Assembly (NCBI RefSeq): GCF_002252565.1
Contig: NZ_NPML01000025.1
Span: 1-41,684, forward strand
Direction of reading: 5' to 3'
DNA length: 41,684 nt
Origin: Petroclostridium xylanilyticum
GTDB lineage: Bacteria > Bacillota > Clostridia > SK-Y3
Each line of letters begins with the position of its first letter. Within the stretch, counting starts at the first letter, position 1. Of the stretch, positions 1,956-11,284 are shown in pieces. The notes beneath the pieces are model-generated. The model was given only the letters and a program-made list of their open reading frames with translations. It was not told the DNA's origin and made no database searches. A program made the translations under genes and the position numbers.

Positions 1956-2216
1956 TCACCACCATCCAGTAGCAGCATAAACAACTGCTCCTATAACGCC
2001 ACCTGCAATGCCCATACCAACTGCTCCTGATACAGTTCCAATAACAGGAACAGTCATCGTACCTCCTGTGGCACCTGCTATAGCACCTGTTAAAGCTCCT
2101 GAAGCAACTGATCTACCAAATTCCTTCCAACTCCAGGCACCACCATCAATTGTCATTAAATCATCATTTGACAGCTCTAGAAAATTCACATTATTTAGCA
2201 ACATTACATCTGTCAC
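1956..2216 (-). CDS. Double-glycine bacteriocin precursor 1 (86 aa)
   Basis: This is a class II-type precursor. The 26-residue leader carries the pattern NFLELSNDDLMTIDGG, cut after GG by C39 peptidases. The 60-residue core has aromatic ends (AWSW at the start, TGWW at the end) and many GxxxG/AxxxG pairs, typical of helix-packing membrane-active bacteriocins. The start is GTG (2214-2216) behind GGGGGGA. It has its own terminator (1904-1948), a structured leader (2241-2326) and a promoter at 2497-2525. PCAT at 11740-13959 is the likely processor and exporter. The core has no cysteines, so no disulfides or lanthionine rings are possible. It could be one half of a two-peptide system; the partner is not obvious. 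Confidence 0.85.
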   Translation of the reverse strand: MTDVMLLNNVNFLELSNDDLMTIDGGAWSWKEFGRSVASGALTGAIAGATGGTMTVPVIGTVSGAVGMGIAGGVIGAVVYAATGWW

Positions 2217-2240
2217 TCTATATCCCCCCTTCTTTTGTTT

Positions 2241-2326
2241 GTAACTTCTTCCATTCCCCGGGTAACTTCAGAATATATATCAACCATAAAGACTGTTTTA
2301 TGCCGGCAATTCCAGTCCTCATGGTT
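2241..2326 (-). promoter_or_regulatory. Conserved leader element of precursor 1: hairpin plus CCCGGGG box
   Basis: Read leftward, a 14-bp stem (2313-2326 pairing with 2282-2295, including G-U pairs) encloses a 17-nt loop containing GCCGGC. About 20 nt later comes the block GAAGTTACCCGGGGAATGG, then the ribosome site. The same arrangement precedes every precursor gene here (4901-4971, 8318-8393, 11319-11394), with base changes that keep the stem. No U-tract follows, so it is not a simple terminator. Confidence 0.7.
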
Positions 2327-2336
2327 AATATCACTA

Positions 2337-2427
2337 TTACAGAACAGACGGATTAACTCCAACATATACATAAACTTGTATATCGTCAAGTTCCTGTGCA
2401 GAGCTAGATCCCTTTACATTGACATTT
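2337..2427 (-). pseudogene. 3' fragment of DUF5085-like gene (copy 1)
   Basis: In frame it reads SSAQELDDIQVYVYVGVNPS, matching the C-terminus of the intact gene at 4984-5478 (AQELDDMVIDVYIGVNPSIL). The rest of the gene is missing. The deletion joins the codons for NVNVK directly to the upstream promoter region. The same junction occurs at 8404-8480, so both remnants descend from one deletion event. Confidence 0.8.
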
Positions 2428-2496
2428 ATTCTATCAAGTATTTTATGCAACGCATAGCATTGTTTGGTTATAGTTGTTAATACTTTATTCATTATG

Positions 2497-2542
2497 AATT
2501 TACCATATCTTGTTCAAATTATCAACCTATGGATTTCCATAG
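2497..2542 (-). promoter_or_regulatory. Leftward promoter and partial operator for precursor 1
   Basis: On the minus strand TTGATA (2520-2525) and TAAATT (2497-2502) are spaced by 17 bp, a plausible sigma-A promoter. The left arm of the 28-bp dyad seen at 5583-5610 is intact (ATCAACCTATGGA), but the right arm is cut after CCATAG at 2542, where the regulator locus begins. This copy has therefore lost half of its presumed operator. Confidence 0.6.
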
Positions 2543-2553
2543 TATTTCAGGAT

Positions 2554-3318
2554 TCAGGGTATTAGTTTAAGACGTGCAGCCATTGCGGCTGCTTCGGTGC
2601 TTGAGTTTACGTTTAGTTTTTCAAAAAGTACTTTTTTATGATAATCCACGGTACATTCTTTTATTTTTAGTGCAATTGCTATTTCTTTTGCCGAGAGTCC
2701 TCTTGTTATTAGCGTCAGGATTTCCATCTGGCGTTTTGTCAGCTTGACAGAAGACATATCTATAATATATTGATTAAGCTGCTTTTTGTATTTGTCTATC
2801 AAATAACTGGGTAAAATTTTTGTAATGGCTACAAATTCTTTTTTCATTTGTGTATTTATGGTAGATATGTCGAGATATCCAATGATCTTGTTATTCATCA
2901 ATATCGGCGTACAAAAACAATGCCAGCATTTAAAAAGACTGCAGTAATGCTGTTCCGGCAGTATATATATGGATTCGCCTGTATCCATGGCCATGGATAC
3001 GGCATTGGTCCCGCAGCTTTCCACGGCAAAGGACATACCCGGCTTGATTTGGGATTGTTTAACGTGCTGTTCTATATCCTTGTTGTAGTAAATATCCAGT
3101 AAAATGCCCTGTGCATCGGTTAATAGGAAGAGAAATGCTCCGGTAAGATGAGCTTTAAGTTCTGTAATGCAGGTTTTAAATGTAGAGATGAGCATTTTGT
3201 TTTGGCTGCATATAACTTTGAATTGTTGTGGTGTCACTTTTATCACAGGAAAAACGATGTCTTTGGACAAACCTATGCTCTTGCACCGCTGCCATGATGC
3301 CAATATTTTCTTTTCCAT
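2554..3318 (-). CDS. GAF-LuxR transcription regulator, intact copy (254 aa)
   Basis: Residues ~1-180 resemble the N-terminal sensor of AcoR/DhaR-type activators: SWQRC near the start, LLTDAQGILLDI, GTNAVSMAMDTGESIYILPE, and GYLDIS. Residues ~190-254 are a LuxR-type helix-turn-helix (LTKRQMEILTLITRGLSAKE, then VDYHKKVLFEKLNV). The usual sigma-54 AAA+ domain is absent, so this is a sensor fused directly to a LuxR DNA-binding domain and probably acts with ordinary sigma-A promoters. A Cys-rich stretch (CSLFKCWHCFC) could bind metal or sense redox; that is inference. ATG with GAGAGGAC upstream. Its 3' end abuts the precursor 1 promoter, so it is a natural candidate regulator of the cassettes, but direct evidence is lacking. 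Confidence 0.85.
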   Translation of the reverse strand: MEKKILASWQRCKSIGLSKDIVFPVIKVTPQQFKVICSQNKMLISTFKTCITELKAHLTGAFLFLLTDAQGILLDIYYNKDIEQHVKQSQIKPGMSFAVESCGTNAVSMAMDTGESIYILPEQHYCSLFKCWHCFCTPILMNNKIIGYLDISTINTQMKKEFVAITKILPSYLIDKYKKQLNQYIIDMSSVKLTKRQMEILTLITRGLSAKEIAIALKIKECTVDYHKKVLFEKLNVNSSTEAAAMAARLKLIP

Positions 3319-10007: not shown

Positions 10008-10120
10008 TAATTTTAAGCATTATACATGTTGCAGATAGTACATTAAATCACTAAAGATAATTTAACCAGCATGTCGGAAGGATATAAATTGGGGACTAGC
10101 AACGGGGACGGTTCTCACTG

Positions 10121-10355
10121 TCAAGCTTTACTGACAGCAACCCTATTAATACCCGTTACTCTTGATATCTGTAGAACAGAAAATTCCTCTATTTCCTTGG
10201 ATTTTTTCAAAATACTACTTCTTTTTTCGCTATCTAATCTTTGTATGTCCGATGCGTCTATCCCTATCATCTTCAAAAATGTCTTGTTGATTGATCCCTT
10301 TTAGCATAATATGATATATCCCACTGCTGCTTTTTTCTCATGCATGTCTTGCCAT
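10121..10355 (-). pseudogene. Decayed RAYT transposase, copy B
   Basis: Same remnant as 7120-7354, with the same stop, frameshift and internal deletion. It decayed before the 3-kb duplication, so it did not itself move the unit. Confidence 0.8.
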
Positions 10356-10471
10356 GCCAAAACACCTCCATTTCGAAGCATATGATCTCGAAATAAAGGT
10401 GTCAACAACCCCGTCCCCTTGACACACCCCGTCCCCTTGACACACCCTTGACATCCACGCATGCAAAGAAT

Positions 10472-10816
10472 TTAAAACTTTGTTCCCCTCTTAAAAACTT
10501 CATATGTAAAATATATAGCAGCAATTAAAAAAGGAACATATAGAGCTACATTAATAAAATCTGGAAAATGGAACTGTCTATTTAAAAACATTACAATACT
10601 TACATAACAAAGTACTATTATACCATACATCGGCAACATTTCACCTGTAAACTTATAGTTAATTAATGCCATTATAGCTACAATGGTTAAAATAATGTCT
10701 GTAAAAGTAAACAGGTTTCTCTCTTTGTTATTCCAATAAAAATGCCACATATTCAACGCAATAGTAATTGAAGTAAACAGATAAATTAGAAATTTATCAA
10801 ATAATATTTTCAACAT
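10472..10816 (-). CDS. Four-span membrane protein (114 aa), candidate immunity protein, copy B
   Basis: Identical to the protein at 7471-7815, in the same position behind precursor 4 copy B. See that entry for topology and alternatives. Confidence 0.7.
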   Translation of the reverse strand: MLKILFDKFLIYLFTSITIALNMWHFYWNNKERNLFTFTDIILTIVAIMALINYKFTGEMLPMYGIIVLCYVSIVMFLNRQFHFPDFINVALYVPFLIAAIYFTYEVFKRGTKF

Positions 10817-10972
10817 GAACCTCTCCTTTTATAGTTCAAATTTATTAATTGAACCATAGCTCTCAATACTTACCTCTAGTTTTATTTTACTAATCTTTTT
10901 AGTATTATATATAATTTCTTTTCTATAACTCTATCTTATGATAGTATGTACTTCAGTATATACTTCAAAAAA

Positions 10973-11016
10973 GGCAATCCTGAAAACTTAAGTTAATGAA
11001 GAATTTCAGGATTGCC
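10973..11016 (-). terminator. Rho-independent terminator of precursor 4, copy B
   Basis: Copy of 7972-8015: 13-bp perfect stem followed on the minus strand by TTTTTT. Confidence 0.85.
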
Positions 11017-11044
11017 CTGTTTACTGAGTAAACATTATTACATT

Positions 11045-11284
11045 TTAATCTGTAACGAGACCATACCCTACATAAGCCCCGGAAATTGCAGAGATAGCGA
11101 GATATGTAACTGCAACAGGTGCTGTTACGGGTGTAGTCATCATTGCAACCGCCAAGGTTGCTCCTAAATAAGTAGCAGTACCTGCAAATACTCTATCCCA
11201 ATTAACTCCACCATCAATACACATTAATTCTTCTTTGTTTAACTCCATAAAATTAATACTGTTAATATTTAACGCAGCATCCAT
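11045..11284 (-). CDS. Double-glycine bacteriocin precursor 4, copy B (79 aa)
   Basis: The peptide is identical to 8044-8283 (leader ending MCIDGG, core starting VNWDRVFAG). It is transcribed divergently from the full PCAT/HlyD operon, about 450 bp away, through the leader and the DUF5085 remnant. This is the precursor gene physically closest to the functional exporter. Confidence 0.85.
   Translation of the reverse strand: MDAALNINSINFMELNKEELMCIDGGVNWDRVFAGTATYLGATLAVAMMTTPVTAPVAVTYLAISAISGAYVGYGLVTD

Follow-up and report, generated by a model that had tools for sequence, protein, structure and literature searches.

A large, apparently mosaic island of double-glycine peptide precursors with one intact exporter in Petroclostridium xylanilyticum

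Introduction

How might one bacterium come to keep many dissimilar secreted peptides behind nearly the same 5' region, pass them through one exporter and stay unharmed until they have left the cell? Contig NZ_NPML01000025.1 of Petroclostridium xylanilyticum raises this question. This contig (C25) was analysed at its full length of 41,684 bases, hereafter the window, and belongs to a genome of 41 contigs and 3,863,184 bases (3.86 Mb). It carries genes for small precursors with double-glycine (GG) leaders, together with a peptidase-containing ABC transporter (PCAT) and an HlyD-type accessory protein. A sequence-only reading had described the region from 1956 to 11284 as five precursor cassettes generated by duplication of one module and divergence of the peptide cores. 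Our analysis indicates that the locus is probably a class II bacteriocin island (unmodified, double-glycine peptides) made of mosaic units, in which a shared 5' module was recombined before unrelated precursors that use one PCAT/HlyD exporter, and in which a DUF5085-like protein may protect the producer. GG-peptide islands are a known kind; the unusually large size of this one and its mosaic build are real.

Results

Twelve double-glycine precursors in eight cassettes

Open reading frames (ORFs) with a GG leader are present on the minus strand at all five places named earlier (1956–2216, 4330–4533, 4578–4862, 8044–8283 and 11045–11284). The core lengths are those predicted, 60, 51, 54 and 53 residues in that order, and the fifth frame is an exact copy of the fourth that lies within a 3,001-bp duplication. 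The precursor at 1956–2216 starts at GTG and joins a 26-residue leader to its 60-residue core. PF10439 (Bacteriocin_IIc, cut-off 27.1 bits) scored the four distinct window precursors at 32.8, 18.0, 12.2 and 30.8 bits, two of them above the cut-off, and the best score of the four with TIGR03949, a class IIb two-peptide profile, was 19.5 bits, below its cut-off of 21.5. The 5' untranslated region (UTR) of these genes is also present on two other contigs, C22 (locus L001) and C23 (locus L002), which hold eight further precursors: seven on C22 (6945–7160, 7303–7548, 8392–8622, 8630–8851, 13543–13752, 16267–16521 and 16552–16815) and a single one on C23 (1138–1428). The genome therefore holds 12 distinct GG precursors in 13 copies, all of them open frames, and the earlier claim of a multi-peptide repertoire is borne out.

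These precursors form eight cassettes over the three contigs, namely A (1956), B (4578 with 4330) and C (8044, copy at 11045) in the window, D (7303 with 6945), E (8630 with 8392), F (13543) and G (16552 with 16267) on L001, and H (1138) on L002. The window thus has four cassettes, three of them distinct, and not five; the gene at 4330 has no module of its own, starts 44 bp after 4578 and forms one two-precursor cassette with it. Two adjacent precursors occur in four of the eight cassettes (in the window, in B), which may be compared with class IIb two-peptide bacteriocins. The bounds 1956–11284 were too narrow, as the island runs past the contig start. The order C22-C23-C25 is likely because the end of C22 and the start of C23 overlap by 317 identical bases, and the island would then span roughly 30 kb; the ends of C23 and C25 have no exact overlap.

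A profile of the 12 leaders, searched against the whole genome at E ≤ 1, returned their 13 copies and nothing else, its 14th row being the other of two leaders inside 4578. The precursor at 4578–4862 carries a leader that is partly duplicated within the gene, giving two leader matches in one ORF. Leader positions -4, -7, -12 and -15 are L, I, V, M or F in 12, 11, 12 and 11 of the 12 leaders, respectively; 4578 departs from this at -7, with A, and 8392 (C22) at -15, with D. All leaders end in GG. Positions -4, -7, -12 and -15 are named as peptidase-domain binding positions in the text available from PMC7018657, and -7 and -12 in that from PMC6959990. The leader profile gave no match in the five other genomes of the host family that were compared, none of which is another species of the host genus. 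With PF10439 at E ≤ 0.001, a search of 391 genomes from the class gave seven matches in the host genome, one each in three others and none elsewhere; the count is a ranking and not a census, since at this limit the model is insensitive and overlooks six of the island's 12 distinct precursors. A plasmid search with the UTR and two precursors as queries gave no homologue at the limits applied.

The shared 5' module

The UTR element consists of an 18-bp hairpin and the block CCCGGGGAATGGAA. In the window it lies on the minus strand at 2246–2339 (cassette A, with the invariant block), 4896–4986 (cassette B, the most divergent copy), 8313–8406 (cassette C) and 11314–11407 (the copy of the cassette C element). 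The hairpin/CCCGGGG element of the sequence-only reading is thus confirmed: CCCGGGGAATGGAA is present 7 times without mismatch in the 3.86-Mb genome, every time in the island. Among the 391 genomes, GAAGTTNCCCGGGGAATGGAA with at most 2 mismatches was found 7 times in the host and once each in two others, with 2 mismatches. In an alignment of six copies, five of them distinct, 97.8% of cells are paired, compared to 33–50% in slid controls; the element is likely structured as RNA, covariation being no proof of this. No known RNA could be assigned to it, as Rfam gave no match over the gathering score in the window, L001 or L002, only sub-threshold scores. Two further sets of candidate sites were discarded. 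In genome G025 a class-level match to the RNA model proved to be a symmetric hairpin, which the model hits on either strand and which lacks the CCCGGGG block. The two one-mismatch CCCGGGGAATGGAA sites, on contigs C7 and C18, fall within long reading frames that we read as glyA and addB.

The second part of the module is a dyad, CCTATGGA-NN-TCCATAGG, which had been called a dyad promoter at each precursor. It is perfect at 5588–5605 (between divergent genes), at 8589–8606 and at 11590–11607 (between the cassette C copy and the intact PCAT) and has one mismatch at 2526–2543. With at most one mismatch, CCTATGGANNTCCATAGG has 5 sites in the genome, all in the island. The third part, said to be a DUF5085-like gene or its remnant, is intact once, at 4984–5478 on the minus strand; the other five copies are C-terminal remnants, three of them with stops, and include a 51-residue one at 2337–2492 (minus strand), placed by alignment in the frame of the C23 copy.

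The shared 5' module is therefore supported, whereas its presence in the same order at every precursor is not: cassettes D and E have the UTR and no dyad, no UTR element was found near F or G, and in H the UTR is kept beyond an insertion (L002 2925–3018). The module would comprise a dyad operator, the DUF5085-like gene or its remnant, the hairpin/CCCGGGG UTR and partly also the leader codons, with pieces missing in some cassettes.

Origin of the cores

To locate where similarity between cassettes ends, the five cassettes whose UTR lies next to the gene were compared region by region at the DNA level, in 10 pairs. UTR identity, taken over the 120 bases that precede the start, is 0.75–0.95 (shuffled means 0.45–0.50). 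Leader identity is 0.63–0.73 in the six pairs without 4578 (shuffled 0.50–0.53) and 0.42–0.53 in the four pairs with 4578 and its longer double leader (shuffled 0.37–0.39). Identity in the cores is 0.44–0.56 (shuffled 0.43–0.49), and behind the gene it is 0.45–0.59 (shuffled 0.46–0.53). BLAST alignments of L001 7472–7680 with 8775–8982, and of L001 8775–9122 with window 2140–2489, stop at the GG codons. Among the 12 cores phmmer found no core-core match, and the 66 core pairs have a best shuffle z of 5.1 and a median of 1.2, the cassette A core (w1956) reaching at most 3.6 against its neighbours.

Clear relatives in other genera were found for three of the 12 cores. The w1956 core matches a precursor at L065, from a different family of the same class (E 7.5e-10, z 18.4), and one of Paenibacillus woosongensis at L009 (E 3.2e-5, z 12.2), while the cassette G pair (16552 and 16267 on C22) matches Herbivorax L034 and Paenibacillus L018 (E 4e-23 to 1.4e-14). 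At L065, L018 and L034 a DUF5085-like gene stands immediately before the homologous precursor; at L009 it follows the precursor at a distance of about 1.4 kb. The remaining nine cores have no outside relative at E 0.01 among the loci compared. Weaker links, seen by shuffle z only, join 8392 with L033 and L013, both 8630 and 8392 with L075, and 1138 with one L030 precursor, all at z 5.0–7.6 and hardly above the best value within the island; a second L030 precursor gave z 1.0.

The three cores with outside relatives, together with the loss of similarity after the GG, favour recombination of a shared 5' module with cores that already existed. The sequence-only reading had instead derived the cores from duplication and divergence, that is, from one ancestral cassette whose cores diverged in place under diversifying selection. 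UTR and leaders in common, the real recent duplication of one unit and a weak core-core similarity (seven of 66 pairs, z 3.6–5.1) are what such a history would leave, and some cores may share a faint common descent. As a source of the cores we nevertheless regard it as very improbable, as phmmer joins no two cores, three of 12 match other genera far better than each other, and in two pairs a non-coding UTR is 92–95% identical while the cores stay within about 2 standard deviations (sd) of shuffled sequence.

A different route to the same pattern would be old paralogous or acquired cassettes whose UTRs were homogenised by gene conversion, the drop between leader and core marking the ends of conversion tracts. 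Repeats are abundant, and the UTRs are near-identical across cassettes where the leaders are less so, as expected from conversion. Nothing speaks directly against it; the absence of a UTR element found near F and G, and DUF5085 remnants whose deletions suggest transplanted or decayed ends, fit it less well, and we consider it unlikely, though worth some weight.

Repeats and mobile elements

The window holds a recent tandem duplication, as had been proposed for one unit: 5486–8486 and 8487–11487 are 3,001-bp copies that differ at 5511, 5524 and 5566 only, three mismatches within the first 81 bp, which is consistent with a crossover inside the repeated promoter region. Other stretches recur as well. 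A regulator-plus-UTR block of 1,335 bases is common to C23 and the window (99.85%), and the first 858 bases of the window recur at 2709 (99.8%). Transposase genes stand directly upstream of F and H, and upstream of G lies a RAYT-type repeat that is 95–100% identical among four L001 and two window places; in these three cassettes mobile-element sequence stands in place of the module. This repeat, of 224–340 bp and with GGGGACGG ends that make it RAYT-remnant-like, lies at module edges (window 7096–7421 and 10097–10422; L001 5580, 9131, 12617 and 16860).

So much repetition raises another prospect, namely that mobile elements have left most of the island in decay, so that few cassettes work and some of the repeats are false. 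Truncated PCATs, broken DUF5085 copies, transposase genes and repeats at module edges, and contig breaks at repeats are all in keeping with decay. We judge it rather unlikely for the island as a whole: all 13 precursor copies are open, the leaders keep the PCAT pattern, the PCAT and HlyD genes are intact, and the tandem units differ in their first 81 bp only, as expected from recombination at a repeat.

The exporter and the nature of the cores

The sole intact PCAT found in the genome is encoded at 11740–13959 (plus strand), followed at 13956–15482 (plus strand) by the HlyD-type protein (PF13437, 67.3 bits). The PCAT scores 687 bits against TIGR01193 (cut-off 524) and contains PF03412, PF00664 and PF00005. 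Its best solved relative is C. thermocellum PCAT1 (956 bits, 719 residues aligned), and in the alignment it conserves both C21 and H99, given as the catalytic residues of PCAT1 in the text available from PMC6959990. A genome-wide search for C39 peptidases found this protein and two truncated copies (5738–6043 and 8739–9044, plus strand) that cover peptidase-domain positions 2–83 of 133 and are unlikely to work because they stop before the catalytic His. With one intact C39 exporter and truncated copies lacking the His, service of all precursors by one transporter, as first claimed, is the simplest reading and not a demonstration. An AMP-ligase-like 3' end (assigned by eye) at 6037–6172 and 9038–9173, 92% identical to the inverted 15567–15702, is fused to the truncated PCAT, giving a chimeric junction in both tandem units.

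The cores have 47–71 residues and are mostly hydrophobic, with a median grand average of hydropathy (GRAVY) of 0.90 and a lowest value of 0.11 (1138). GxxxG motifs number 33 over the 12 pooled cores versus 21.2 ± 3.8 after shuffling (p 0.0035); among single cores p is below 0.05 for w1956 and 1138 only. Could the peptides instead serve in signalling or colonisation, as may hold for the rtg peptides of pneumococci? The available part of PMC7018657 does give other roles for GG peptides, and the exporter has an AgrB-type locus at a distance of 18 kb. We think this improbable: hydrophobic, GxxxG-enriched cores of this length with candidate immunity genes are bacteriocin-like, and it would be strange for one exporter to carry twelve different signals. 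The AgrB-type locus itself (33664–35942) has an AgrB-type gene (PF04647, 121.7 bits), then an AgrD-like ORF of 44 codons at 34322–34456 (by eye), one more ORF and a gene for a GHKL/SpoOB-type histidine kinase, and is possibly a peptide quorum-sensing system.

The DUF5085-like gene

A model of the intact DUF5085-like protein (4984–5478) by AlphaFold2 (pLDDT 90.8, pTM 0.82) resembles GyrI-like proteins, namely CTR107, EcmrR, CtaZ with closthioamide, STM3175 (albicidin resistance), SbmC/GyrI and BmrR, and we predict a GyrI-like fold. PF16895 (DUF5085) was matched at E ≤ 0.01 by nine of 12 aligned DUF5085-like proteins. Homologues (phmmer E ≤ 0.01) are present at 11 of 32 PCAT loci from named genomes, many of which end at contig ends, where absence of the gene means little; L035 was left out of the PCAT loci, being a 28% match over the ATPase part only. 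In seven of the 11 a GG precursor lies immediately downstream (L006, L008, L012, L018, L029, L032 and L034; L008 by eye). Because these loci had been chosen by PCAT, the class was also searched by the DUF5085-like gene itself. At E ≤ 1e-12 this gave 24 loci in 14 of the 391 genomes, 23 of them outside the host genome. A GG precursor, ABC exporter part or HlyD gene lies within 3.0–3.5 kb at 17 of the 23 (L060, L065–L072 and L075–L082), 11 linked by a GG precursor and six by Pfam-confirmed ABC/HlyD genes alone; four GG calls (L066, L070, L076 and L078) were made by eye at profile E 0.04–0.55, and several loci are orthologues within one genus and make fewer independent cases.

Core hydrophobicity is higher at PCAT loci with a DUF5085-like gene (9 vs 10 loci, p 0.008), as one of three measures compared. 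Precursors were picked at each locus by the leader profile from the island at E ≤ 0.5, and any that lacked GG/GA or had a core outside 20–110 residues were discarded, so that 19 of the 32 loci yielded at least one core; one L034 core was cut at a later GG than planned. Other candidate features did not travel with the gene. A hairpin behind it reaches z < -2.5 in only L034, L031 and L029 of 11 other loci, with unlike sequences, and the island dyad is upstream of it in none of nine other loci, four of which have dyads of their own. At L061 the DUF5085-like gene adjoins a dockerin gene, and at L073 a DUF2589 gene.

According to the available text of PMC10434224 and PMC12744356, membrane toxins of the glycine-zipper kind are neutralised in the cytosol by the DUF5085 proteins TipE and ExiA/ExiB, the latter of which bind the zipper region to do so. 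On the linkage to GG and export genes, the predicted fold, the likeness to TipE and ExiA/ExiB and the hydrophobic cores, we propose that the window protein is a cytosolic antidote or holdase. As known DUF5085 members are specific, it may serve cassette B first.

Hairpins, candidate immunity genes and other neighbours

A strong hairpin lies 3' of the last precursor in seven of eight cassettes, at z -4.1 to -6.2, the exception being cassette D (z 0.1); it lies in none of the four gaps between paired precursors (z -1.6 to 1.1). These had been read as terminators; we do not name them so because a consensus scan, with 4 sites in 1600–12100 versus 4.8 expected, calls none of them. Behind the hairpin most cassettes encode a differing small protein, hydrophobic by eye and probably an immunity protein. 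In the window the candidates are a 49-residue peptide ORF after the cassette A hairpin (1734–1883, minus strand, TTG start, a sequence like a ribosome-binding site, translated by eye), a 204-residue protein after cassette B (3606–4220, minus strand) and a 114-residue protein after cassette C (7471–7815, copy at 10472–10816, minus strand); the last two have no Pfam match over cut-off. Of seven such proteins, the 71-residue one of cassette G alone has relatives at the 32 PCAT loci (L034 and L018). A CPBP/Rce1-like membrane protease (PF02517, 65.8 bits) at 6191–7006, copied at 9192–10007 (plus strand), is a further immunity candidate; PADLOC matched neither it nor the DUF5085-like protein.

A GAF-LuxR-type regulator is encoded at 2554–3318 (minus strand; GerE 60 bits, GAF 21.7 bits, just below its cut-off), with a partial copy at 2–610 and a further one on C23. 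Downstream of cassette A, 1414–1608 encodes a small CxxC zinc-ribbon-like protein (by eye), and a look-alike, again by eye, stands at L072 1030–1242, where a DUF5085-like gene and part of an ABC exporter are its neighbours. On C22 the island includes an AbiEi/AbiEii abortive-infection toxin-antitoxin pair (L001 10286–11987; PADLOC 364.6 and 408.5 bits).

Discussion

The pattern of near-identical 5' regions before dissimilar cores suggests how the island may have been assembled and how it may work. Homologous recombination would have copied the 5' module before several unrelated precursor genes, and a 3-kb unit appears to have been duplicated recently in tandem. The exporter, PCAT1-like by homology, and its HlyD partner would bind the conserved leader, cut after the GG and export the core. 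Most likely, the single intact DUF5085-like protein would guard the producer from within by binding hydrophobic precursors before export.

Several points weigh against this account. The contiguity of C25 with C22-C23 is inferred, and the exact tandem copies may be mis-assembled. In nine of 10 pairs the cores are more alike than the shuffled mean, with an excess of about 2 sd at most, and z is 3.6 or higher for seven of the 66 core pairs. Of the four distinct precursors in the window, two score under the PF10439 cut-off (18.0 and 12.2 vs 27.1), the UTR hairpin has one two-sided (compensatory) pair, with column shuffles matching its covariation score in 253 of 500 cases, and the terminator scan places no site at the hairpins 3' of the precursors. 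As for the DUF5085-like protein, it scores 23.9 against a PF16895 cut-off of 30 and lies above the cut-off of Cass2, and a profile search of solved structures gave nothing beyond one chain at E 0.069. Six of the 23 loci outside the host (L061–L064, L073 and L074) have no visible export or GG gene nearby, neither Gly nor GxxxG content differs with the gene at PCAT loci (p 0.33 and 0.35), and DUF5085 immunity, as described in the available text on known members, is cognate-specific, a poor fit with one protein for twelve peptides.

What would the island add? Twelve precursors behind mosaic 5' modules would be a natural example of unrelated peptides plugged into one line of control and export, and the DUF5085-like linkage offers a testable answer to the neglected question of how a producer is protected before a membrane-active peptide leaves it. 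More tentatively, and short of calling it probable, we suggest that the GyrI-like/DUF5085-like family is a recurrent, unremarked part of Clostridia and Bacilli PCAT systems that keeps hydrophobic precursors harmless before export, and that its 3' end and the intergenic hairpin became the portable 5' module. If so, the logic of type VII secretion system (T7SS) glycine-zipper toxins would explain how the producer survives before peptide secretion. We did not find this link in the open-licence literature searched, where, as far as the texts available go, DUF5085 mostly concerns type VII secretion, a secretome study being the exception.

Multi-peptide GG loci with one exporter are already known (blp and rtg), and a search for literature on multiple bacteriocin genes with a single transporter gave no paper. 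C. thermocellum PCAT1/CtA has the same exporter type along its whole length (956 bits); there, one 90-residue substrate was studied, whereas here there are 12 candidate substrates and an HlyD partner. For the pneumococcal blp locus, we know of no shared DUF5085-like gene or hairpin/CCCGGGG UTR. In the CtA leader, L at -7 and -12 is required for binding, as the available text of PMC6959990 states. The blp locus (BlpAB, pneumocins) resembles the island in its many GG peptides, presumed type IIb pairs, immunity genes, a double-leader variant and recombination as a proposed driver, and is unlike it in its BlpC/BlpH/BlpR control, all as given in the text available from PMC4860687; the island has a GAF-LuxR-type regulator gene. 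The pneumococcal rtg locus (RtgAB) likewise combines a PCAT and a putative accessory protein with several GG peptides and differs in its Rgg/SHP control, and the text available from PMC7018657 lists RtgX only as a 'GyrI-like hypothetical protein'. TipE and ExiA/ExiB, which face the T7SS toxins TelE and EsxX, differ in that those are LXG toxins and not GG peptides, and the window protein is under the PF16895 cut-off. They are alike in lying in a gene cluster for a membrane-active toxin, as far as PMC10434224 and PMC12744356 are available, and the GyrI-like fold stated there for ExiA/ExiB is the one predicted for the window protein.

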